A DNA stretch of 64,000 bases from Aurantiochytrium sp. KH105 (lineage: Eukaryota > Sar > Bigyra > Thraustochytrida > Thraustochytriidae): NCBI GenBank assembly GCA_003116975.1, contig BGKB01000016.1, forward strand, positions 375,127-439,126, in the 5' to 3' direction. The position numbers and the translations under genes are program-made. A model generated the notes under the pieces. The model ran no database searches and was not told where the DNA came from. It saw nothing but the letters and a program-made list of their open reading frames with translations. Shown here piece by piece: positions 4,158 to 63,877 of the stretch. Each line of letters starts with the position of its first letter. Position 1 is the stretch's first letter.

Positions 4158-7100
4158 TTACTCTGCAGGTCCATCCTTTTTCGAACGCTTTCTGCCATCC
4201 ACGACGCGGTGTCTGACGAAAGGCAACCGAGCACCCCAGCCCCGTCGCTCCGAACCAGAGGAAGTCGCTGGCAATGCATCAGCCGCCGTGCTGCTCGCAC
4301 CGAGACTGCTTCTGCTTCCGCTCTCGTCTGCCGCGCCCTCAGGCAATTCATCCGTCCCCTCGGACACACCGTTTGCTTCACGATTTGACCTTGCGCTGCT
4401 GCCTGCAGACGATGCAGCGTTCGTTTCCGCGCTCGTTGCATTGGATGAGGCTGAGGCCCCCATCGGCGCTCGAGCGGGCAACGGCGGTCCGGCCGGTGTC
4501 GATGACGACGACGAAAAGGATACTGAATCCGGAGACATTGACGACGCAGCAGCATCCGACGCCACGGATGGTGACATGATTTCTGGTCCAGGTTGGACCC
4601 CGGATCCGGAACGTACCCTTGAAAAGCTGATTCCCGACCCCATTCTTACTCTGGAGCTCGAGCTCGATAATTTAGGCCTGCTCAATGGTGAAAGCGGTCT
4701 CCCAACTTCCGCGTGACGACTTAACGGCGATGACTCCGCCCGACCAAGCGGAGAACGAGTTGTTGCGGAAGACGTTGACGAGGAAGAAAGAGACGGAGAT
4801 GAAGAAGTGGAAGCGAGACCGCCTGGCGAGAATGAAGAAAACCGCGGGAGCGGTACTAGACGTTGGAAAAACGTGTTGATTCGCTCAATGCGGCCTTGTT
4901 TTGGTGCGATCTTCTTCAGATGCTCGTTACTCACGCGAATGTCGATGCCCTCGTCAAAGGCTACATCGCATTCAGGAATCGTCTTATAGGCAACAGTCAC
5001 CATGCCTGCAGCCCCTCGCTCGAGACCAGACCCGTTGCTTACGGTAAGCTTCACCCGATCTCCCATCTCAAACTCTGAAGGTGGAAACATCTCAGCTGCA
5101 GAGAGCGAAGCATCTGATCGCGACGATTGGCAGTTCCCACAAAGCATGATATCTGGTGCGTTTGTACGTCGACAGGTTGAGCACACCCAGGGTTCAAGGC
5201 TTTCCGTACCATTTACGCTAGTTCCCATGCGACGTCCACAAGGCCCGCACTTGTCGACCCCTGGTTCGTTCTCACGGCCGCAGGCAGGGCATTTCCAAGG
5301 CGTTTCCTCCGCCAATGTATCGACACGGCTGCTTTCGTGTGGGAAGAGACCGTGGCGTAACGCCGAGGTTTCTGAGGCGTCAAGAGAGCGGGATTTAGAC
5401 CGCGGTCGGACCCAATGTACGGCGCTCCCGCTCATATGTTCGAGACTACGGATTCTTCGATGATGTAGTCCAGAATCCTTTGCTCCAGCAACTGCGCTTC
5501 TTTCGGCGTCGGCTTCGACGCCAAGGCCATCCACAGGTTCCTCGTTCTCGATGTCCCGAGGCGTGTCGGCAAGGTCGTCGTCTTCGACGTCGTCCACGTC
5601 TACACTATGTTCGACCCGTCCGAGACGCTTGGTGCTCTTGCTATCGTCTCCTGAGGAGTCTAAGGCTTCCAAGTCCCGGGCTTTAACACCTGCCGCTACT
5701 GCTGCTGCTGCTGCTGCTGCGAAGAATCCCGACTTTTTACGCGCATCACCTTTGCCGCGACGCCGTCCCGTAGCACTTTTGCCGTGATTGGACGATGTGT
5801 CCTTTTCGTCCTCGCCATCATCGTCATCATCGTCGTCGACATTATCGCCAGCGGTGGAGGCGGTATCGCCATCTCCATCTCCATCGCCATCGTCGTCGTC
5901 GTCGTCGTCGTCGTTCTCGTCGTCGTTGTCATCATCGTCACCTTCATCATCACTATCGTTCACACCGCCTTCGCCATTATCCAGTCTTCCTCGTTCCATC
6001 GCGGAGATGCTGCCATTCCGCGTGGCAGATGCGTTAGCGATCGCTTCTTCTTGCGCGAGCATCTCCCGAAGCTTTGGACCTTCCGAGTTCAGCTTCTCAA
6101 GGATCTGCTTGCGGTCATGATGGCTGCCAACGCCAAGCTTGGAGAGTCGCTGCTTGTTGAGAACGAGTAGATCTTCCACAGTGAACAAGCCACGCTCCAC
6201 GAGTTTCGTGCGCCATTCCTCGAGGCCAAGAATCTCAATTGCGTCATCAAATCGAGGACCCGAAATGAAGAGCTCTTCGATCCGCTGGCTTGCTCGACGC
6301 GGCTGAGCAATAGCGGAACCCACGCGACCATAGTTGCGAAAGGCATGAATGAGTTTCTCTTGATGCGAAAATCCGGAGACCCCAAATTCGGGCAAATCAG
6401 CATGAGTTAGCTGTTTGGCCTGTCGCATCCGTACGCACCCCATCTTACGAAACCCGTCCATGTATTGACTCATACCCAGATGTTGCAAGAGCTCTTCAAG
6501 CAGCTTCCCATCCTCGTCGCCTTCACCGAGGACATCAGCGTCAAACCCGTCGAGCTCGCCTTCGCTGTCAGCCCCAGCGCCGCCGCTCAAGGCTACCTGC
6601 TTTCGGCGGCGCCGTCGAGGCGGCACAGCAATATTGGAGAACAAGAGCAAATCGTTCTGTCGTGCCTCCGTGTCGGGTAAAGGCGGAACGACAAGCTTGT
6701 CAAGAATGCTTTCCTTAAGAGAAGCATGCTCCAAGAAGGCGTCCCAGGCTTCATCATCGTCACCCGCGCGCAGCAAGACAGAGCTCACCGTGCTGTACAA
6801 GTCAGCGGACCCTTTGCCCCCATGTGCCGAAAACGCGCAGAATGCAGCACTGTACTCGGGACTCGTGATCGCATGATAGAGACCCTCCGTTTCGCGATGT
6901 ATGAGAGCGCGCGCTTTGGCCTGAAGACGCCGTCGAACGATAGCTCGCTGCCGTCGTAACTTTTCAAAGTTCGCAGAACGTAGCTTTGACGTGGCGGAAG
7001 GCGACAGCCCGCGCTTCATTTGCGATTTCGCTACCTTCACGTCTGGGACATCTTCCTGTTCCTTCACCAAAAACGGCCCTGGTGCATTCAACATTTTGGA

Positions 7101-10100
7101 TAAGCGCCGACCTTTGACATCTGTGCGCCGTACGCTCTCTGCGCTCTCTGCGCCGATGTGCAGAGTCTCTGGTGCGGAGAACTTTCCAGAAGTACGGATG
7201 CATTCGACAGCTAGAGCATGTGTGACGAACGAGGCGCCTTCCACACTCCGCATCTGTTTCTCCCGAAGCTGCTCCAGACGTTTGTCGGCACTAGCAAGGT
7301 GAAGGACGCACGCAATTGCTTGGGCCCAGCGCTGACGTAGCACGTCCTCGGCAAAACGCAGCAGACACAAAATCTCGCCTGAAGGTGAGGTCATTTCCAA
7401 GAAGTTATGCTCCATGTGGTCCACGACGTTGATGGCCTTAATTTGAATCCCGGCGCTCAGCTCGAAAGTTTGCTCCACCTCTTCACCTCGTAAAAGGAAG
7501 AGCTGGCCTTGGTGTAAGGCGGCGAAACGCTCCTTCCAGCTGTGCCGACCTCCACTGCTTGGGACAACACGGACCTGAAGCGAACCGCTGGCAAAGAGAC
7601 TTGTGCGGAACTTGGCGGCGAGCGAGACCACGGAACTCGTGATCAGGTCAATGTTAAAAGGCGGCGCCTCAATGTCGCGCGCCCATGCACCATGACTCTT
7701 GGGACAGAGATTGTCAGAAAAGACAATCGTACGTTTCGTACCTTCAATGAAAGCCTCAACCTCCACATGCGAGCCACCTGAATCATCTTCGGCCTCTACA
7801 TGTTTTGCCGTAGTTCCTGGCACCACAGTGACGACCCAAAAAAGCCGCCCCGTGGTGGGATCCGCCAAGCGAAGCTCTGCCTTTGGCCTTCCCGTCAACA
7901 CGAGTGCTTGGCGTTTCCGCCGAGGGACCCGCGGAAGACCTTGGGTCGTGGACGGAATGGTCACAAGCGAGGTTCGTATGGGACGAGAGTGAGACAGCTC
8001 GAACATGCCCGGACTCTGATCGCGACAAATTTCGGCCAAAATCATGCGTTGCCGCACAGCATGACCTCGCCAGATGCGCTGAATTGAGATGGCAACGCTG
8101 AAAGCGCGCACGTCCTGCGATCGGCAAATGAATCGACGCGCAAGAGCTTGAATACGAATCGCTGCCCCACGCACAATGAGGTAGTCGTTACGCACCCGAA
8201 ACAGACGAAAGGCGTTCTGAATGGAGATGGCCGCATCACGAAAGTGGGCGGGGTCCAGGATTTTGCGGTATACCAAGGCTTGAATCTTGAGAATGGCTTC
8301 AATCTTCTCCGAAAGCTTCATGCATTCGTGTTGTATCTTAATCGTTGCCTTCTCGCGAATGCGCCAGCGGCATCGTTCTAGAATCCGATGTCCCTTTGCA
8401 CTCAGATAGAAGATCGGATCTGGGTCGCCTTCCTCGCCAGCGTCGATCCACCGTTCGCCTTCTTCGCCAAGCAGCATCTCAAGTGTGACCGATGCACTCT
8501 TGGACAAGTCAACGTCAAAGCGACGCGCGATTGACCAGAATCGCAACAGGATCTCGGACTCAGAAATTCGCATTGGGAAGAAAGCGTCCCGCACCGCGCA
8601 CAGCTGAGAAAACCCTGCATAGTCCAATTGCCGCGTTGCGACATCCTCGTCCCATTCCATGGGCCAATAGCCAAGATTGGGAAGGATGCAGCGTATAAGC
8701 CACATTCTACCCGACTCAAGAATCTCGGAGAGACCCATGATCTCATTGCGACGACGCTGTGCGGAGGTGCGTGTCTCGGCGCGCTGGTTAAATATCGCAG
8801 CGTGTTCCAGCTCGCTGTCGACCAGCGCCAGCGCTCCCTTTTGTAAGACAGCAAGCACAGACGATACCTTTGGGTCAAACAGCTCGAGAAATTGCTCGCT
8901 GGAAACCTGGCATGAGCGTGCGTTGGCCGCAATGAGGCCGCGCGCGTCATACTCGACAAAGTAACCTCCATAGTGCCGAACGCGGAATGAGTCGTATCCA
9001 AAGGTTGCTCGCTGCAGATACCGTTTACTTTCATGAAGCACAAGAAGGGTCTGTACAAACTCTGCATCGTCGAGCGCATGTTTGCCACGCACAAGAGCTT
9101 GCTCATCGAGACGCGAGAAAATGCCATCGGGTTGGCCCACGAACATTTCGAGAAGCTCATGGTTCGTCTGCAGGTGCATGGACCGCACCGCGTCTTGACA
9201 TGCCTTGGGAAGCCGCTTCTTTTCTGTTTCGTGCATGCCCGTCTCGTAGATGTGCTCGCAGACCTCGTTGGCAAAGTTTTGGAAGAGGGCCTCGCCCGAA
9301 AGCCATTGCGACCCTGCGAATTCTTTGGGTGACGCTTCCGCAGTTCCCTTCATGCCGCACGTGGGGGCGGCAAAGTCCTTCTCTGGATCAGACCCGGCGA
9401 TGCCAAACACAAATCCGGGGTGCTCGACAACGTTTAGACACAGATCTGAAGGACTTGGCGGCTTGCTGTCCGACTGCGCCGCCATCTTTACGTTGATCGT
9501 CTGCAACACAAAATCAAAGATCAAGCCATACACAAACTCGATGAAGTGATCACGCATCTCGGACGCCTGCTCGGCAGAGAGTGCCGTAAAAAGGTCTTCT
9601 TCTTCATGGGGGCAACGGAACAGAAATGATTGCGTCACGCGCGCATGCCCGACGTCCAAGAGCCTGCAGGCTCGCTCCAAACAATCTGCGCTTTGACCGC
9701 TCTCACTCACGGCCGCTTTAGGCGAGACATCGCTTTCGCTCGCGCGTCTCTTGCTGCTCTCTTCGTTCTCCCAAATTGAATCGCTGGCTTCGAACTCAAC
9801 GTTGCTAAGCAAAAGCAAAGAGGCCAGAATACGCATCAGGTCCTCTTGGACAGACGCGTTGAGACCCAGATCGTCGAGAGCGCGCAGCGTAGATTTGAGC
9901 GCCGAAGCGCGCGTGAAGCGAAACCGACTCGACGATTTGTCTCGGGGCCGAAGGTGTCGGCGGTAGGTTGCATCTTCGTGTCCAAGCATGTGATACTTTG
10001 AAGGCTTCTCGAGCCCAAAATCTTCGGTGAAAGCGTCAATGTCACGCCAGCCATTGCACAGCTGATAAAAGACGTTGAAGCCGCGCTCTAATGGGTGCTT

Positions 10101-13100
10101 GCGCAAGAGACGATTCCTCTCAAAAGCGTACGCCTCGGTAAAAACGCGCGAAATTTCGTACGAAGGCTTTGAGCCTTCGCCACCTCCACCTGTACTTGTC
10201 TCGCGCAGACACACCCGCATAAGCTTCGTGAAGCATGTCGTATCCGAGCAGCGAACGCCAGAAGCGTTTCCAAACGCCTGGAGAGCAACTTGAGCGGCTG
10301 AGAATGTTTTCAACATCTCTTCCGACTTGCCCGCTACAGGCTTGGCCGAAAGCAAGTAACGTATGAGCTCCTCGCTGAGCCGTGATTTCCCAGATCCGGA
10401 CATACCTGTGAGGACGATGGACTGAGATGTCAAGTCTTCGCTTGTTGCTGCCGCAAAAGCTTGGTCGCCGAGCGCAAACACGTGAGGGGCAACGCTCTTG
10501 GAGGACGATGCACTCGACGATGCACTCAAATTCGTTTGGCTAGGGTGTGCAAAGAGCCCTTCGAGCTCGATGCCCGGGTTTACTGCAGCCAAAACGCCTT
10601 CGGAGACCCAGGTGAAAACCTTTTGTCGGCGAACGAAACGATCCTCGAGACGGTGCGCAATGACGCCCTCGTTGAGCTCATCAAGGCTCGACAAATCGTC
10701 ATCCATGCAATGCTCGAGATCAACATGGCAAGGGTGCACAGTACGCGCGCGATCGAGGGGCACAAGAACCGTAGACTCACTACCATCGCAGCGCACGCGC
10801 ATGGATGTCTTCAAGTACTCCACCACGGTGGCCATCTTCCACGCTGCGCGTTCATCGGGGCGAACCCACGCCCTTACAGCGAGACTGGAGACAGGATAAT
10901 CCTTGCCATGCATGAGCCAGTCCCATCCTGGCGTGAAGGGCCCTGGGAGAGGCCGATAACCAGACTCTGAGGCAGCGGCCTTCTTTCGCCGGCGCAGAGC
11001 CCACTTTGCGTCGACCACCTGCATTGTACGAGAAGGGGCAAGCGGGCTCCGTCGTTGTTCCGGAATGATCTGCAGGTTGCTCGGTTTCTGTATAAATCGC
11101 TCAAAGCCCACATGCAGAGGGCGGTCTTCTGCATTAATCCATTCCATGATTGCGTCTTTGTCCCGAATGTCTTCGTAGTCCATGTGTTCAGCACTTTGCT
11201 CATCCTCATTGTCTTCATTAGGCTTGACGAGCGCAATCGTTTCTCCGCTATTGTCCAGGGCTGCAAAACTGCGCTTGCCAATGTAGACAATGCGATTCCC
11301 CTCCTCGATGAGCGACTCGATATCCGGGAGAGACTCTTGAAAAAGCTCATAGTCCAGGCCAGAGAGCTCGAGCGTTCCGTCATCCATGACAAAAAAGTCA
11401 AAACCAACGTCCTGCGTGTCCACAACAAGTTCTGTAATGACGCTGACCAGGTTGATCGGTTGTTCTGGCTCCTTGTAAGGTTCCAATGCTTTTGTTTTGC
11501 TCTTTGATTTTAACGATACCTTTGTCTCCTCGGAAGCACGAAGAGATCCGGACGACGCAGTTGCGGTTGTCAAAGACATTTTCGTAGAGTGCCCCTTTGT
11601 GAACCGTTCTCCAAGCGTACTGTCGGTTTCGTCACCACTCGTGAGGCTTTCGAGAGCAAGACGTTCTTCATCTGCAGACTCGTCCTCGTCCCCACCTTGG
11701 TAGTCGATGTCGCCTTCGGCAGCCGTAGCCACAGCCACATCCTCCTCCTCTTCCTCCTCCTCCTCCTCATCATCATCGTCATCTTGACGCTGATGTTGGT
11801 TGTCATGTCTGCGAGAGTTCTTTGAGCTGTGGGAAGATTGACGGCGCTCGTGCGTTGGCTGAGCTGTCGATGATTTGGCCATCAACGAGGAATCTATCAA
11901 AGGCGATGGTGCTCTTGAAAGTTTTTGTGATCCGTCCTGCGCAGGCGCATGCTCGACGCTCTCTTCGTCCCCGAGTGTCTGGGTTTCGTCACCTTTGCGA
12001 ACTTTGGTGCTGCCTTTCGACGACCGCGAAGACGATGTCGATGATGATGACGACGCTTTGGCTGTTTGCGACTTGTTCTTACCATCGCTGCTATTTCTGT
12101 TGCTGCTGCTGTGGTTTTGCAACCCAGACTTACGCCGAGACAACGAGCGCGAAGCAACCTTTTCCTTCTCGTCCCCTTCGCCAGCAGAGGTCGAATGCGC
12201 TTCATCCGTCAAGTCGCCTCGATGTGTTCGTTTGGTCCCTTCCTTCGACCTTCTCCGCCTGCTGGAGCCCCCTCCACTTGTCGAACGCACGTCGTCCACG
12301 AGACCCTCGCTATTTAGGTCGCTGCCCATGTCGTGGCTGTCGTCAGATTCTGACCCCTTGGTGTATACATCAAGATCAAGCGTTCGCCCAGTAGATTTCG
12401 CAGCATGATGCCCGGCCTTGCTGTTGTTAGTAATTTCTGGGACTGTATCAAAGCGCGTTACTATATTTGGTTGACCTGGAGCACGCTCAAATGTCGATGA
12501 CATACTGGCTGTTGCAGAAGAGGCCCGTTTGCGAGGCACTGGATCAATCAACACATCTTCGTCTGTCTCCTCTCCACCGGCACTCGACCTCTCGGGGATG
12601 TCATTGAGGGGACGTGACTTGCTGGGTTTCGAACGGCGAGCAGATGCATGAGACCCTTTTGCATTGCGCAATTCGGCGTGATTAATAACTGCTGCAGGTG
12701 TGCTTTGCCGACGCTCCTGCCGGTGCGTAGGGCTGAAATGAAGGGGCTCGCTGAGTTGGCCGGCGCTTCTGCTCGCGACGCCTGCTGAGAGCTGTCGATG
12801 CGACTTTTGCGATGCACGGCTGGAGTCAGGATCGTCCGAAGAGCGGGTTAGCAGTCTTCCTGTTTTTGCAGAATCCCCAAGCTTGGAGTCTACACTGGCG
12901 GATCGTCGCATGTGTTTCAGTGGCTCGTCTTCTTCGGCCGACAAGGTCGAGTTGGACAAAGAAGATGAAGAGACTGCGCGCGCTTCGGAAGATTTTCGTC
13001 GCGTAGGTTTGTGAGATGCGGATTTTTCGGATTCCGAGCCGTTGCGAGACACACTCGAGGGGCCGCGCCGTCGCGCGACGAGCCCTTCGTCTGCCCGCGG

Positions 13101-13340
13101 CGCAGGCGGGACTGCCTCAAGATTTGTTTTGGGCAGGACGGCAGATTTTCGTCGTGGCGCCTCGTTCGCAGACTCAGCTCCACTCCCCGGATCCGAGCCC
13201 ACGGCGGTGGTCGTCGCTCTCCGCGCGCGACGCTGCTTTGCGCTTTTCCGTTTCGTATCTTCATCCGACGCCAGGCCCGCTGCCGTCGAGGTACGCGCTC
13301 CGTCGCGAGACTTGTCGGTCGTGGTGGTGGTAGTCGTCAT
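4158..13340 (-). CDS. Giant multidomain myosin-like protein with degenerate motor (PDZ-like/motor/IQ/PH/SAM/ZnF)
   Basis: A single uninterrupted frame of about 3060 residues, with the first ATG at 13340. Approximate order: disordered Ser/Arg-rich N-terminus with a polyacidic block (520-550); PDZ-like region (630-745, ending RPLHVGFER); myosin N-terminal region and motor core (about 860-1660); four or five IQ motifs (1665-1767); PH domain (1917-2017); two SAM domains (2275-2336, 2362-2423); acidic low-complexity stretch; two RanBP2-type zinc fingers (CPAC...CGPC near 2680, CSTC...CGNC near 2720); SH3/KOW-like segment (2754-2813); Ser-rich tail. Motor identity rests on VFTWVSEGVLAAVNPG, the P-loop GMSGSGKS (979-986) and RCILPN in the actin-binding region. 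Switch I reads CSDTTCFTK where NxNSSRFGK is expected, and switch II reads VEHPGF where DIxGFE is expected. ATP hydrolysis is therefore doubtful. A calmodulin-binding, membrane-attached scaffold is inferred. Confidence 0.85.
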   Translation of the reverse strand: MTTTTTTTDKSRDGARTSTAAGLASDEDTKRKSAKQRRARRATTTAVGSDPGSGAESANEAPRRKSAVLPKTNLEAVPPAPRADEGLVARRRGPSSVSRNGSESEKSASHKPTRRKSSEARAVSSSSLSNSTLSAEEDEPLKHMRRSASVDSKLGDSAKTGRLLTRSSDDPDSSRASQKSHRQLSAGVASRSAGQLSEPLHFSPTHRQERRQSTPAAVINHAELRNAKGSHASARRSKPSKSRPLNDIPERSSAGGEETDEDVLIDPVPRKRASSATASMSSTFERAPGQPNIVTRFDTVPEITNNSKAGHHAAKSTGRTLDLDVYTKGSESDDSHDMGSDLNSEGLVDDVRSTSGGGSSRRRRSKEGTKRTHRGDLTDEAHSTSAGEGDEKEKVASRSLSRRKSGLQNHSSSNRNSSDGKNKSQTAKASSSSSTSSSRSSKGSTKVRKGDETQTLGDEESVEHAPAQDGSQKLSRAPSPLIDSSLMAKSSTAQPTHERRQSSHSSKNSRRHDNQHQRQDDDDDEEEEEEEEEDVAVATAAEGDIDYQGGDEDESADEERLALESLTSGDETDSTLGERFTKGHSTKMSLTTATASSGSLRASEETKVSLKSKSKTKALEPYKEPEQPINLVSVITELVVDTQDVGFDFFVMDDGTLELSGLDYELFQESLPDIESLIEEGNRIVYIGKRSFAALDNSGETIALVKPNEDNEDEQSAEHMDYEDIRDKDAIMEWINAEDRPLHVGFERFIQKPSNLQIIPEQRRSPLAPSRTMQVVDAKWALRRRKKAAASESGYRPLPGPFTPGWDWLMHGKDYPVSSLAVRAWVRPDERAAWKMATVVEYLKTSMRVRCDGSESTVLVPLDRARTVHPCHVDLEHCMDDDLSSLDELNEGVIAHRLEDRFVRRQKVFTWVSEGVLAAVNPGIELEGLFAHPSQTNLSASSSASSSKSVAPHVFALGDQAFAAATSEDLTSQSIVLTGMSGSGKSRLSEELIRYLLSAKPVAGKSEEMLKTFSAAQVALQAFGNASGVRCSDTTCFTKLMRVCLRETSTGGGGEGSKPSYEISRVFTEAYAFERNRLLRKHPLERGFNVFYQLCNGWRDIDAFTEDFGLEKPSKYHMLGHEDATYRRHLRPRDKSSSRFRFTRASALKSTLRALDDLGLNASVQEDLMRILASLLLLSNVEFEASDSIWENEESSKRRASESDVSPKAAVSESGQSADCLERACRLLDVGHARVTQSFLFRCPHEEEDLFTALSAEQASEMRDHFIEFVYGLIFDFVLQTINVKMAAQSDSKPPSPSDLCLNVVEHPGFVFGIAGSDPEKDFAAPTCGMKGTAEASPKEFAGSQWLSGEALFQNFANEVCEHIYETGMHETEKKRLPKACQDAVRSMHLQTNHELLEMFVGQPDGIFSRLDEQALVRGKHALDDAEFVQTLLVLHESKRYLQRATFGYDSFRVRHYGGYFVEYDARGLIAANARSCQVSSEQFLELFDPKVSSVLAVLQKGALALVDSELEHAAIFNQRAETRTSAQRRRNEIMGLSEILESGRMWLIRCILPNLGYWPMEWDEDVATRQLDYAGFSQLCAVRDAFFPMRISESEILLRFWSIARRFDVDLSKSASVTLEMLLGEEGERWIDAGEEGDPDPIFYLSAKGHRILERCRWRIREKATIKIQHECMKLSEKIEAILKIQALVYRKILDPAHFRDAAISIQNAFRLFRVRNDYLIVRGAAIRIQALARRFICRSQDVRAFSVAISIQRIWRGHAVRQRMILAEICRDQSPGMFELSHSRPIRTSLVTIPSTTQGLPRVPRRKRQALVLTGRPKAELRLADPTTGRLFWVVTVVPGTTAKHVEAEDDSGGSHVEVEAFIEGTKRTIVFSDNLCPKSHGAWARDIEAPPFNIDLITSSVVSLAAKFRTSLFASGSLQVRVVPSSGGRHSWKERFAALHQGQLFLLRGEEVEQTFELSAGIQIKAINVVDHMEHNFLEMTSPSGEILCLLRFAEDVLRQRWAQAIACVLHLASADKRLEQLREKQMRSVEGASFVTHALAVECIRTSGKFSAPETLHIGAESAESVRRTDVKGRRLSKMLNAPGPFLVKEQEDVPDVKVAKSQMKRGLSPSATSKLRSANFEKLRRQRAIVRRRLQAKARALIHRETEGLYHAITSPEYSAAFCAFSAHGGKGSADLYSTVSSVLLRAGDDDEAWDAFLEHASLKESILDKLVVPPLPDTEARQNDLLLFSNIAVPPRRRRRKQVALSGGAGADSEGELDGFDADVLGEGDEDGKLLEELLQHLGMSQYMDGFRKMGCVRMRQAKQLTHADLPEFGVSGFSHQEKLIHAFRNYGRVGSAIAQPRRASQRIEELFISGPRFDDAIEILGLEEWRTKLVERGLFTVEDLLVLNKQRLSKLGVGSHHDRKQILEKLNSEGPKLREMLAQEEAIANASATRNGSISAMERGRLDNGEGGVNDSDDEGDDDDNDDENDDDDDDDDGDGDGDGDTASTAGDNVDDDDDDDGEDEKDTSSNHGKSATGRRRGKGDARKKSGFFAAAAAAAVAAGVKARDLEALDSSGDDSKSTKRLGRVEHSVDVDDVEDDDLADTPRDIENEEPVDGLGVEADAERSAVAGAKDSGLHHRRIRSLEHMSGSAVHWVRPRSKSRSLDASETSALRHGLFPHESSRVDTLAEETPWKCPACGRENEPGVDKCGPCGRRMGTSVNGTESLEPWVCSTCRRTNAPDIMLCGNCQSSRSDASLSAAEMFPPSEFEMGDRVKLTVSNGSGLERGAAGMVTVAYKTIPECDVAFDEGIDIRVSNEHLKKIAPKQGRIERINTFFQRLVPLPRFSSFSPGGLASTSSSPSLSSSSTSSATTRSPLGRAESSPLSRHAEVGRPLSPLSRPKLSSSSSRVRMGSGISFSRVRSGSGVQPGPEIMSPSVASDAAASSMSPDSVSFSSSSSTPAGPPLPARAPMGASASSNATSAETNAASSAGSSARSNREANGVSEGTDELPEGAADESGSRSSLGASSTAADALPATSSGSERRGWGARLPFVRHRVVDGRKRSKKDGPAE

Positions 13341-14495
13341 CCCGGCCAGCTCGAGCCGCGAGAGCTTTCCCTCCCTCGCGCTCCTCGCGCGCAGGCTCAA
13401 GACTTACACCCGCGCCGCGCAGACGAGGCTTGGCATGCGCGCCCCCCGCCCCCTGCCTCCCGCGCGCGCCAGCGCTCGCGCAGCCCCGCGCAGACCCCGC
13501 ACGCGCAGAGTTCTTTCTTTCTGCCTCGCCGCGCCGTGCACGCGCCGCCTGCTCGCCTCCCTATACGCTATGACGATACGGTGGCCAGACCAGACCTCGG
13601 ACCAGACCGGCCACTGCTGCCCGCCGCGACGCGCTCGTCGTTATCCACCGCGACCGCGACCGCGACCGCGACCGCGGGATCGGAGAGCGAGAGCGAGAGC
13701 GAGAGCGAGAGCGAGAGCGAGAGCGAGCGAGGGTCCTTGACGCTCGCTCTGTCTCGTCTGTCTTCAGGGTTTCAAATCGATCTCGCGGCGGCGATGGGCC
13801 CGGCGCGGCTGCCCGCCTGGCCGACTTTCTCCGCGCCGCTCGCGCGCGCCGCTCGCTCGCTCGCTCGCGCGCGCGCGCGCTCACGCGAGGGCGCGAGGGC
13901 GCGAGGGCGTACGCCGCGGCAGCCTCGAGTGCTCGCGCGGGGCCGCAGCGTGTTGGCTCGACTCTGGGTTTGAAAAGACAGCGAGGACAAGGGGGGGAGA
14001 GAGGAGGAGGAGAGGAAAAGTAGTGCAGGGACAAGTCGAGGGAAAGGAGGCGGAGTGGACAACCACCGGGGTTTCCTCCTCGCCCACGCTGACCCCCCTC
14101 GGGGAATCCGACGCCGGTGCATTGCCTTCACAGAGGTCGCTGGTTTTGTGGGAGCCGGGGCACTGTGCGACTGTGGTTTGGCCGACGCCGAGCACCCTCT
14201 TCTCCTGGTCTTGTATAGCAGTTTTGTATGCTGGCGATATTGTGTCACCTATACAAGACGCGACAAGACGGCAAGGGCGCGGAAGGGGTGCGCGCACGCG
14301 TCGGGGACTCACAGGGGGTGTGTGCTAGCACGGTTCGCGACGCGGGACTCGGGCGAAGATGGACGGGACGGGACACCAATACGCGGAGACGGGGCCCGCG
14401 CTGCGACACCCCTCATATCACGCGCCGAGCGGCGTCCAGAACGAAGACCATTGCCGTCCCCGGGAGCGCAGCGCGAAGGATTGATTGTCGCGAGC
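13341..14495. other. Divergent intergenic region with hexanucleotide repeats
   Basis: A 1.15-kb region between the giant myosin-like gene (minus) and the unknown gene beginning at 14496 (plus). It contains a CGCGAC tract (about 13648-13677), a GCGAGA tract (about 13684-13730), CGCT/CG tracts (about 13845-13880) and a G-rich stretch near 13990-14010. The frame of the 14496 gene remains open further upstream, but without an ATG that adds plausible protein. Confidence 0.5.
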
Positions 14496-60473: not shown

Positions 60474-63299
60474 CTAATTGCTCAATGCTTCCGTGCGCTG
60501 ACTCAACCGCCCGTGATCCTCGCGATGTCCTACGGCCATCCGCATCGGTGAGGAGGTGGCTTCGCTTCCAGGCGGCGTACTTGAGCTTGAATATGCGGCT
60601 CGCATTGCCTTTTCCAGCTCCTTGAGACGTCGCTTTTCCTCCTTCCGAGCGCGTCGCGCACGCTTCTCCTTGCGTCTCGCCCTTTTCTCTTCCTTGCGTT
60701 TTCTCTTTTCTTCGCTTGCCGTTCGCGACAAGCTTTGTGTATTGGCTGAAGGCTGAAGATCATGACCCACCTTGTCACGTACAGAAACAACCTCGCCGAC
60801 AGAAGATGGCAAAACGTCGGTATCACAGATGGGGCTGGCGCTTGCAGAGGCCAGCCCGTCGACCGCGGTCAGCTCTTCCGCGGATAGTTTTGCCGACTCC
60901 CCTTCCATGGACGAGTCATCATCAAGTCCCAGCCAGGTATTATTGAGCTGCATCTGCGATACCTTGGGTTTCTTGCGAAGGCGCTTGTTGTGCACGGTGG
61001 CCGGCTCAGCGATGAAAACAGGACTCGGCTTGACAATGCGGCCACTTGCCGACGTGCGTCGCCCAGGAGCTTGCGTCAGCGGCGTGCCGAGCGTCCTGCT
61101 AATCTCTTTCGAATTGTCAGCAAGCCGACGTGGTACCGCTTGTACAGTCTCTGCCTTGAATCTCGACATGATCTCGAGGTCCTCACGCGGCTGGTTCTGC
61201 CTCAGCTTCTTGTTATGCGTCGTAGCTGGCTCCGCAACAAAGGCGTTCGTAGGTTTGACAATGCGTCCACTGGACGAGGTAACAAGAGTGCTACTGTTGG
61301 CAGTGGAGGCAGACATGTCTCTTGATCGAGACACTTTGCCGCTAGAGGACGAGACTTTCGCTTTCTTCTCGTGGGACTTTGGCGTCGAGAGACCGCCAAG
61401 CTTACGCGATGAAGACCCTTCATCGCCTCGAACAGGAGGTTTTCGTGCACTCGTCACTCTCTTTCTCGTGGGAGGTGACGCTCTAGCGTGTGGAAGCACA
61501 GAACCCTCCACGGTTTCCTCATTCCGTAATTTCTTGTTGTGAGCCGTCGCAGGCTCGGCAACGTAATGCGCAGTAGGTTTGACTTGGCGGCCACGCAGAG
61601 AAGTTCTCGAGCTGGTCGGGACTGGCTTCTCCGTGACTTGCGGAGCAGACGAGACCAAGGATGTCTTTTTCGACAAGGACTTGGTAACTGACTTGGTGGT
61701 TGGTATAACGCCCGGGTCTTGGTGCTTGAGTTTTTTGTTATGCGACGTCGCAGGCTCCGCAATGTAGTGAACAGCTGGTTTGACGACGCGTCCACGCCCT
61801 GACACACGAAGAGGGGTGATCATTTCCTTGGGTGTGGTGAGAACTTGCCTTTTTTGACGTTTTGGAGTGGTCGTCTGTTCCACAGCTGTGCCCGAGTCCG
61901 AGCGAGTCCTTTTCAATGTTTTCTTTGCGGGTGCAACGGTCTCATCTTGATGACTTGCTTCCAGACGACTCTTGACTTTCTTGTTATCTACAGTGGCGGG
62001 CTCTGCCACGAAATGCTTGACGGGTTTGGGGTTGCGCTTGCGCGTCAAACCAGAAAGTGCAGTGCTATCATCATGCTGGTTTTCGTTGTGCTGCATTTGA
62101 GCGTCAATGTCTTCCAACGAATCCGACGACGATAAATAGCCTGATCCACCTATTGTCTCAAGTGGTCGCTTTGGTGTGGGCTCTGCGTCATGGAGTTCTG
62201 GTTCTGAGAGTTTCAATATTTCGGACCTCTTCTCGCGACGTTTTCGCTTCTTTTCTTTCCGTAGCCTTCGTGCCTCCTTGGCGCTCAGTCGATCAGATTC
62301 CGAGTCTGCCAGTTCCCTCTTCTTCTTCTTTCTCTTTTTCTTCTTCTTTTTTTTCTTTGCGTCTTTTTTATCCTTTGCCGCCTTGCCCGCGTCGAGTGGA
62401 ACCCCCTCGGCCTCTGGAACGGGCATTCTTTCGACAGAACTTTGATCTATACTAGTCGTCGCAGCAGCAGAAAGATCCGTGTGATCATTGATAGTAGGCT
62501 TTTCGAGCTTGCGTCGGGACTTGCTCGCCGCCAAAGTGCCAGATCCCGGGGCCGTCTTTGGCGTGCGAGGCACCTTTGATGTGGCTTTCCGTGAGCCAGA
62601 CGCTGCGGCAGAGGGTGAGCTGCCCCGTAGTTTCTTATTGTGTGCTGTGGCCGGCTCTGCAACGTATACGGGCGCCGGTTTCCTTTTGCGTCCGCTCAAG
62701 GAGATCTGTGATCGGCCTAGGGTATCAATCTCGATCGACCCATTCGAAGAAGAGACGGAGCTGCGGCGCGGGACCGCAACCCGTGCGGCAATACGAGATC
62801 CCGTGGCTTGCCGAGGGCGTACGAGCCGCGGTGGCGGTGGCAAGCTCTCGGGTGAGCTACTCTCCTCCTCGTCGCTGGAGTGCACGTCAAGCTGCTGTCC
62901 TGCGGAAAGTCCCGGGCCTGCCCTACTCTCAGCGTTTGCAGCTACAATAGAGGACGCGGAGCTATTTGACGAGAAGGAGGTCCTCGCGGCATGCCCCCCG
63001 GCCAAGTCCCCGAGCTCTGCGCGATCCCGGCGAGGCCCCTTCGCATTGCCCGTGGAGCTCCCGACCGAGGCTCTCGCTTCGTTTCCCTCCACCTCCGACG
63101 TAGACGCCGACTTCTTCACATCAAAGTCCTCCTCGTCGGACTCGCCGCCGCTGCCGCTGCTGCTGCTGCTGCTGCATATCGTCTCCTCGTCGCTGGGCGC
63201 GACCTCGACGGCCTCTCGCGCCACCGTCCACGTTGGCCGCGCCGACGAGGCCCTGGCGCCCATCTCCATCTCCATCTCCATCTCCATCTCCATCTCCAT
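60474..63299 (-). CDS. Basic nuclear-type protein with six AEPAT-motif repeats
   Basis: A 941-residue intronless protein starting MEMEMEMEMEMEMG at the first ATG (63299). It is mostly Lys/Arg/Ser-rich and disordered, with acidic Ser patches near the N-terminus, a Lys-rich run (about 305-325) and a Lys/Arg/Glu helix near the C-terminus (about 875-905). Six copies of a ~25-residue motif occur with AEPAT at 214, 432, 514, 581, 689 and 764. The consensus is (S)GRxVKPxxxFVAEPATxHNKKLR, given as GRxVKP, then F/Y-I/V-AEPAT, then HNKKLR. The GRxVKP head resembles AT-hook-like or GR-x-x-KP chromatin motifs. I know no named family with this unit. Nuclear location and nucleic-acid or chromatin binding are inferred from charge and the repeated GRxxKP. 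Confidence 0.8.
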   Translation of the reverse strand: MEMEMEMEMEMEMGARASSARPTWTVAREAVEVAPSDEETICSSSSSSGSGGESDEEDFDVKKSASTSEVEGNEARASVGSSTGNAKGPRRDRAELGDLAGGHAARTSFSSNSSASSIVAANAESRAGPGLSAGQQLDVHSSDEEESSSPESLPPPPRLVRPRQATGSRIAARVAVPRRSSVSSSNGSIEIDTLGRSQISLSGRKRKPAPVYVAEPATAHNKKLRGSSPSAAASGSRKATSKVPRTPKTAPGSGTLAASKSRRKLEKPTINDHTDLSAAATTSIDQSSVERMPVPEAEGVPLDAGKAAKDKKDAKKKKKKKKRKKKKRELADSESDRLSAKEARRLRKEKKRKRREKRSEILKLSEPELHDAEPTPKRPLETIGGSGYLSSSDSLEDIDAQMQHNENQHDDSTALSGLTRKRNPKPVKHFVAEPATVDNKKVKSRLEASHQDETVAPAKKTLKRTRSDSGTAVEQTTTPKRQKRQVLTTPKEMITPLRVSGRGRVVKPAVHYIAEPATSHNKKLKHQDPGVIPTTKSVTKSLSKKTSLVSSAPQVTEKPVPTSSRTSLRGRQVKPTAHYVAEPATAHNKKLRNEETVEGSVLPHARASPPTRKRVTSARKPPVRGDEGSSSRKLGGLSTPKSHEKKAKVSSSSGKVSRSRDMSASTANSSTLVTSSSGRIVKPTNAFVAEPATTHNKKLRQNQPREDLEIMSRFKAETVQAVPRRLADNSKEISRTLGTPLTQAPGRRTSASGRIVKPSPVFIAEPATVHNKRLRKKPKVSQMQLNNTWLGLDDDSSMEGESAKLSAEELTAVDGLASASASPICDTDVLPSSVGEVVSVRDKVGHDLQPSANTQSLSRTASEEKRKRKEEKRARRKEKRARRARKEEKRRLKELEKAMRAAYSSSSTPPGSEATSSPMRMAVGHREDHGRLSQRTEALSN

Positions 63300-63877
63300 C
63301 CCCGACCTCGCCACCCCGGCGGGCCGGAGCGCAGCGGCGCGGGGCAAGGCGGAGCGCGCGGCGGCCGCGCAGGCCGGCGCAGCGCAGACCGGGCGCGGGC
63401 GGGCGCGCGGGCGGCCAGGCTCGGGCTCGGCCCGCTGGATTTTCCCTCCGCCTCCTCGAAGCGGGTCTGCCGCGGAGGCCGCTCGTGGTTAGCTCCTGCT
63501 ACAGTTGGAAAGAGGGAGCGGAGGAGAGCGGGACGCGCGGCCGCGGTGTGCACGGCCCGAGCCCGGGCTCGATCGGGCTCGGGCTCGGGCCCCGCCGCGC
63601 CCGCGGCAGCACAGCAGCGTCACGTCGGGCGGGTCTGGTCTGCGGGCGGGGAAGCGAGCGGGGAGGCGATTCTGGACGGGAAGGCTCGACGAGCGGGCAG
63701 GAAGCGCACGAGCGAAGGAAGATGAGATGGCGAGGAGCGGCTGTGGCCAGCGAGTGCACGGAGGGATGGATACACACGGGAGAACCGAAGGCTCACGCGT
63801 TCGCGAGGGGGAGGACCGGAAGGGGAGGAAGAGACGAGGCGGGAGAGCCTGGCGGCGACGAGAATGTGGCGGCTTTC
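63300..63877. other. GC-rich spacer upstream of the AEPAT-repeat gene
   Basis: GC-rich low-complexity DNA with CGGGCT-type repeats (63548-63605). The frame of the AEPAT gene is open a little upstream of 63299 but has no ATG there. No gene is seen. Confidence 0.45.

Follow-up and report, generated by a model that had tools for sequence, protein, structure and literature searches.

Why should one basic protein carry the same short peptide six times, dispersed over linkers that show no resemblance to each other? We address this question for P1, which is encoded at positions 60474..63299 on the minus strand of the window (the whole 64-kb stretch of contig C16 analysed here) and whose translation yields 941 residues followed by one terminal stop. 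With 19% K+R, 12% D+E and 14% S the protein is basic and Ser-rich, and a Pfam scan found no domain in it, the sole match being AAA_23 at E 2.1. P1 starts with an (ME)n stretch that is encoded by a six-base coding repeat, (CCATCT)n at 63260-63300. Since the length of this repeat varies between the two copies of the gene, the true start codon is uncertain; the reading frame continues upstream past its first ATG, and every ATG within the GAGATG repeat is a possible start.

The six motif copies, each 24 residues long, are all read from the minus strand: SGRKRKPAPVYVAEPATAHNKKLR at 62625..62696 (residues 202-225), RKRNPKPVKHFVAEPATVDNKKVK with a variant head at 61971..62042 (residues 420-443), RGRVVKPAVHYIAEPATSHNKKLK at 61725..61796 (residues 502-525), RGRQVKPTAHYVAEPATAHNKKLR at 61524..61595 (residues 569-592), SGRIVKPTNAFVAEPATTHNKKLR at 61200..61271 (residues 677-700) and SGRIVKPSPVFIAEPATVHNKRLR at 60975..61046 (residues 752-775). 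In the translation of 63299-60474, the AEPAT cores lie exactly where the preliminary description had placed them, at residues 214, 432, 514, 581, 689 and 764. The flanks described for every copy are present in part: the tail [HD]NK[KR][LV][KR] occurs in all six, the head GRx[VR]KP in five, and copy 2 has KRNPKP instead. The codons of the core had been said to differ between nearly all copies, and the six AEPAT strings are indeed all distinct, with Glu written as GAG in every one of them. Across the 24-residue copies, codons differ at 126 of 232 identical residue pairs, compared to 149 expected for independent codon draws from the P1 gene's own usage. The copies are thus near synonymous saturation and therefore old, and do not stem from a recent DNA duplication.

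The linkers between the copies measure 194, 58, 43, 84 and 51 residues, and blastp among these five gave nothing below E 1, in agreement with the claim that they share no similarity. The linker between copies 1 and 2 includes a lysine/arginine-rich tract (62211..62369, minus strand, residues 311-363, read from the translation), and a charged stretch follows towards the C-terminus (60582..60707, minus strand, about residues 865-906), in which K, R or E make up 26 of the first 30 residues. A motif profile scores each real copy at 45-53 bits and the best of 2000 P1 shuffles at 8.0, a contrast that is partly by construction, as the profile was built from the scored copies together with their paralogues. 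Motif patterns were not found outside P1 in any of the six frames of the 64-kb window, and with a nine-copy profile run on the six-frame translation of the window plus 84 loci, the best score outside the known copies was 13.2 bits (L005). The frame next to P1 (58374-60104), oriented towards it, encodes an acyl-CoA-binding domain (E 5.6e-24) followed by hydrophobic stretches, and a 3080-residue frame at 4161-13400 combines a myosin motor domain with a SAM domain. The GC content varies between 52 and 64% by 2-kb step.

The assembly of 76,034,492 bases in 367 contigs holds a second P1 locus on C41, with 92.4% identity in an alignment of 8,878 positions and all six motifs retained. Because all eight genes examined occur twice (P1 to P4 and the CHD1-like, MRE11-like, CENP-C and PfaA-like genes), the P1 pair probably represents either two haplotypes or the subgenomes of two parents. 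We therefore compared synonymous and nonsynonymous change between the two P1 gene copies, leaving out 14 gapped alignment columns. The motifs differ by 2 amino-acid changes in 144 codons and by 6 synonymous changes (dN/dS 0.10), whereas the linkers have accumulated 46 amino-acid changes in 441 codons (dN/dS 0.69). For the first 200 residues dN/dS is 0.42, and the part beyond residue 785 is also constrained (0.24). Among 20,000 random sets of six 24-codon windows, the mean was 12.0 amino-acid changes, and a fraction of 0.0002 had two or fewer; synonymous changes in the motifs are not depleted, with 6 against 6.8 in the random window sets. As synonymous change in the motifs is ordinary while amino-acid change is scarce, the constraint acts on the peptide: selection holds the motif while the linkers drift. 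Together with the codon differences (126/232), this bears out the earlier proposal of selection on the peptide rather than recent duplication.

The motif had been taken for a feature of one protein, which turned out to be too narrow. Single-protein searches of the whole genome, in which only the best candidates were scored and introns were ignored, located it in at least three genes, P1, P2 and P3, each present as a pair. The second P1 copy, P2 and P3, the close relatives in which the motif might have been missing, all retain it. P2 is encoded on C56 and C27 by frames of 1262 and 1246 residues, carries two copies, SGRRRKPARIYEAEPASVHNRRLR and SRRAIKPVSHFVAESASDDNKKIL, and terminates in a Cys/His-rich stretch. 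P3, on C104 and C113, comprises 221 and 225 residues counted from a common Met and has one copy seven residues short of its C-terminus, which reads GRVIRP on C113 where the other reads GRVIKP. Weak genome matches on C147, C98, C275, C23, C120, C44 and C21 had no visible motif. In all nine non-allelic copies of P1, P2 and P3, R3, K6, P7, A13, E14, A16 and N20 do not vary, while position 11 is restricted to Y/F, position 17 to S/T and positions 21 and 22 to K/R; P15 is present in eight of nine. Between the two P2 genes none of 48 motif codons has changed, and the 1161 codons outside them contain 90 amino-acid changes, a contrast of little added power as these motif codons have no synonymous changes either. 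In the P3 pair the motif is no more conserved than the remaining sequence, with 2 amino-acid changes in 24 codons and a dN of 0.038 versus 0.045.

Besides the motif itself, P1 and P2 share an extended block around copy 1 (62625..62807, minus strand, residues 165-225 of P1) with 49% identity over 61 residues (E 4.5e-10) and the pattern RRxSV...GSIE[IL]DxxGR...SGR[KR]RKP. P2 copy 1 is nearest to P1 copy 1 (16/24), followed by P1 copy 6 and P3 (15), and P2 copy 2 is nearest to P1 copy 2 (14/24). These pairings and the common upstream block suggest an ancestor with two motif copies, to which P1 added copies 3 to 6. A fourth gene, P4, on C201 and C54 (L044, L045) is without a motif copy and shares with P3 the N-terminal block KMQKKF[IV]KLA...GY..DD.V; a search of P1 and P2 for this basic-helix block was negative. 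In P4, several CxxxGC...CxxHGG-like fingers are joined to the block conserved in P3, and they match Zf_WRKY19 (PF24906) with 34.8 bits at a cut-off of 27. The Cys/His stretch of P2 resembles that of P4 (blastp E 0.002), with no match of P2 to PF24906 in Pfam at E 1. WRKY19-type zinc finger proteins are connected to this group by the fingers of P4 and its block common to P3, whereas P1 has no such finger when tested for it, P4 has no motif and P2 misses the Pfam model. A literature search with the WRKY19 finger names found nothing.

Searches of Pfam, NCBIfam and the PDB returned no family match above cut-off, in line with the initial statement that no named domain was known with this consensus. 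NCBIfam gave nothing for P1 and P2, and the PDB yielded an ABC transporter at E 0.8 for P1 and two short profile matches, all judged to be chance. A DUF5024 match on a piece of P3 stayed below the Pfam cut-off (E 0.0071, 17.1 bits versus 25). Three protein-database searches with 7979, 126 and 178 candidates had none at E 1, 10 and 10, respectively, in a database whose eukaryote share is uncertain. Among bacterial and archaeal GTDB contigs 483 stretches fitted the pattern, and 75 among viral contigs, of which none was confirmed. Four peptide strings of the motif were not found in the papers searched. In the libraries searched no named family covers this motif, which is clearly under selection and occurs in nine non-allelic copies distributed over three genes.

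What could such an element do? In its features a motif copy resembles a short linear docking element: the extended basic head is followed by a conserved aromatic residue, and S/T opens a helix. The helix comes from an AlphaFold2 prediction of low confidence, run on six sequences only, which places it at residues 26-39 of a 41-residue piece, directly after AEPAT (pLDDT 73.9, pTM 0.25). We favour a multivalent docking motif made of a basic extended head and a short helix, probably for chromatin, which is a plausible partner deduced from composition and analogy. Each copy would act as an independent binding element, in which the head RxxKPxxx[YF] could hook onto an acidic surface with the aromatic residue packing behind, and AEPA[ST]xxN[KR][KR][LIV][KR] would form the short helix, opened by the conserved [ST]. 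The presence of six copies on unrelated linkers would fit a repetitive partner, so that several copies might bind several identical sites together; nucleosomes, or some other chromatin component that occurs in repeats, are the most plausible candidates. Our leading, still tentative reading is that P1 is a presumably largely unstructured scaffold that displays the six docking motifs and thereby tethers or clusters chromatin. Ki-67, MDC1 and treacle are nuclear scaffolds with multiple copies of a short motif. P1 is comparable to them in that one peptide is repeated in a basic Ser/Lys-rich protein and kept above unrelated linkers, whereas its repeated sequence is unrelated to theirs as far as the searches here go. 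The motif offers a ready-made bait peptide for its partner, in a eukaryote that is not among the usual models. Should this partner be the nucleosome, the motif would represent a novel type of multivalent reader; otherwise it would still define an unknown docking pair.

The reading that competes best with a chromatin scaffold keeps the docking and changes the partner. The motif could provide multivalent docking for one partner other than chromatin itself (a folded adaptor, an enzyme or a chaperone), with P1, P2 and P3 as its co-clients, which we regard as possible though rather unlikely. The strong constraint on the peptide (dN/dS 0.10) and its occurrence in three otherwise different proteins, near the C-terminus of P3 and twice in the Cys/His-ended P2, would fit such an arrangement; but no candidate partner emerged. 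Neither P1 (both copies) nor P2 (C56) nor P3 (C104) contains an RVxF, PxVxL or KEN pattern, and the B56-type LxxIxE pattern has a single match in the C16 copy of P1 that is missing from the C41 copy.

A narrower version of the chromatin reading draws on the shugoshin C-box. The motif might be a lineage-own peptide that reads the nucleosome or a histone tail, similar to the C-box with altered spacing, and that forms, through six copies in P1 and two further proteins, a multivalent chromatin clamp outside the described families; we consider this doubtful. A stricter proposal, which appears improbable to us, is that the motif is a diverged shugoshin-type C-box, each copy reading a histone H2A tail mark, and that P1, P2 or P3 replaces shugoshin. 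The point of departure for both is the published meiotic shugoshin consensus RYRRRRACKPVSYKEPSLRCKMRR, given with Table 3 in PMC5134366. With this consensus the motif shares R, KP, Y, EP and [KR][LM]R in the same order, and both are short basic motifs outside a folded domain. Furthermore, the P3 copy sits near the C-terminus, and the genome search with PF07557 brought only one chromodomain protein pair above the cut-off, so that no shugoshin was found by profile.

The alignments give a mixed picture. Against 16 published C-box sequences, 26, 4 and 0 of 500 column permutations reach the observed mean at gap-opening costs of 11, 6 and 3, so the resemblance is marginal with ordinary gap costs (26/500) and positive with cheap gaps (4/500, 0/500). 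For the meiotic consensus alone, 98, 7 and 0 of 2000 permutations reach the score at the same gap costs, and the mitotic consensus is a poorer match (679, 126 and 90 of 2000). The best of these figures come from several trials, with five reference peptides and then the 16 sequences, each at three gap costs. An MRE11-like piece, intended as a control, had 146, 27 and 13 of 2000 permutations at gap costs of 11, 6 and 3, and since it also beats most permutations, the resemblance is not specific to shugoshin; a CHD1-like piece had 1212, 619 and 484. Membership in the shugoshin family is ruled out by the profiles: PF07557 gave 17 matches to E 10 through the genome, none of them at a motif copy (19 candidates scored), nine motif pieces had no match to PF07557 at E 10, and hhalign against the 16 published C-boxes reported 0.6% over nine columns, while 60 column-permuted motifs reached up to 22.5%. 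In addition, the alignment requires several one-residue insertions as the spacing differs at three places, P1 has six copies instead of one, and the shugoshin Leu two residues beyond EP is S or T in all nine motif copies here. The motif thus has the order of features in common with the C-box and not their spacing, which we take as a lead on how it may work and not as membership.

The chromodomain protein (CHD1-like by eye) has its N-terminal stretch RRSTRDRATKNYKEPSLD at C16:479631-479684 (L028) and C41:198544-198597 (L029), on P1's own contigs. This stretch passes PF07557 (Shugoshin_C) with 23.9 bits at a cut-off of 23.3 in the genome search and scores 18.4 bits on a 621-residue piece of the protein. 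The protein that is MRE11-like by eye (L030 and L031, on C83 and C85) ends near RGRRAARKSVSYAESADE, a basic R..R...VSYAE stretch that outscores most permutations when compared with the motif.

The motif could also be a basic element that binds DNA or RNA directly with an AT-hook-like head, to which we give little credence. Head and tail are basic, and GRKRKP and RGRxVKP recall AT-hooks, but the [RK]GRP core occurs zero times in P1 (both copies), P2 (C56) and P3 (C104), there is no Pfam AT-hook match, and the centre [YF]xAEPA[ST] is not basic and yet among the best kept parts. It is very improbable that the copies are nuclear-import signals present several times, or a repeat that drifts and has no specific role: a loose basic import pattern is matched by the tail KK[LV][RK], and K[KR]x[KR] has 25 matches in P1 compared to a mean of 3.3 in shuffles, but one or two such signals would be enough, the lysine tracts already provide them, and neither the dN/dS of 0.10 nor the invariance of the non-basic A, E, A and N agrees with this reading. 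That P1 is a CENP-C-type kinetochore protein is scarcely credible, for although RxxKPxxx[YF] recalls the head of the CENP-C motif (arginine, then P and an aromatic residue), the P1 motif lacks the YW/HW pair, its similarity to the CENP-C motif is at chance against permuted motif columns (963, 1037 and 942 of 2000 at gap costs of 11, 6 and 3), and the idea is refuted by the absence of a Pfam cupin from P1 together with a genuine, separate CENP-C on C147 and C96, the only places in the genome matched by PF11699, where the cupins score 38.8 and 38.5 bits at a cut-off of 29 and the stretch RRRSLRKRWQTLDHWKGERL is present.

Apart from P1, a TIGR02813 search of the genome found a PfaA-like region on C72, with 930.4 bits under the cut-off of 1010.1; TIGR02813 also matches 11 of 14 control genomes, none over the cut-off. 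On C72, 4.9 kb separate this region from a frame of 2081 residues in the opposite orientation, and a similar layout is found on C155. The divergent pair of large frames (C72:305786-314912 and C155:166452-175544) resembles a PUFA synthase, in an arrangement like that of the thraustochytrid PUFA-synthase cluster; this is compatible with a stramenopile, and the host is probably a thraustochytrid. The part matching the later half of TIGR02813 is located on C290 and on C61, there near the contig start, and its separation is perhaps an assembly break.
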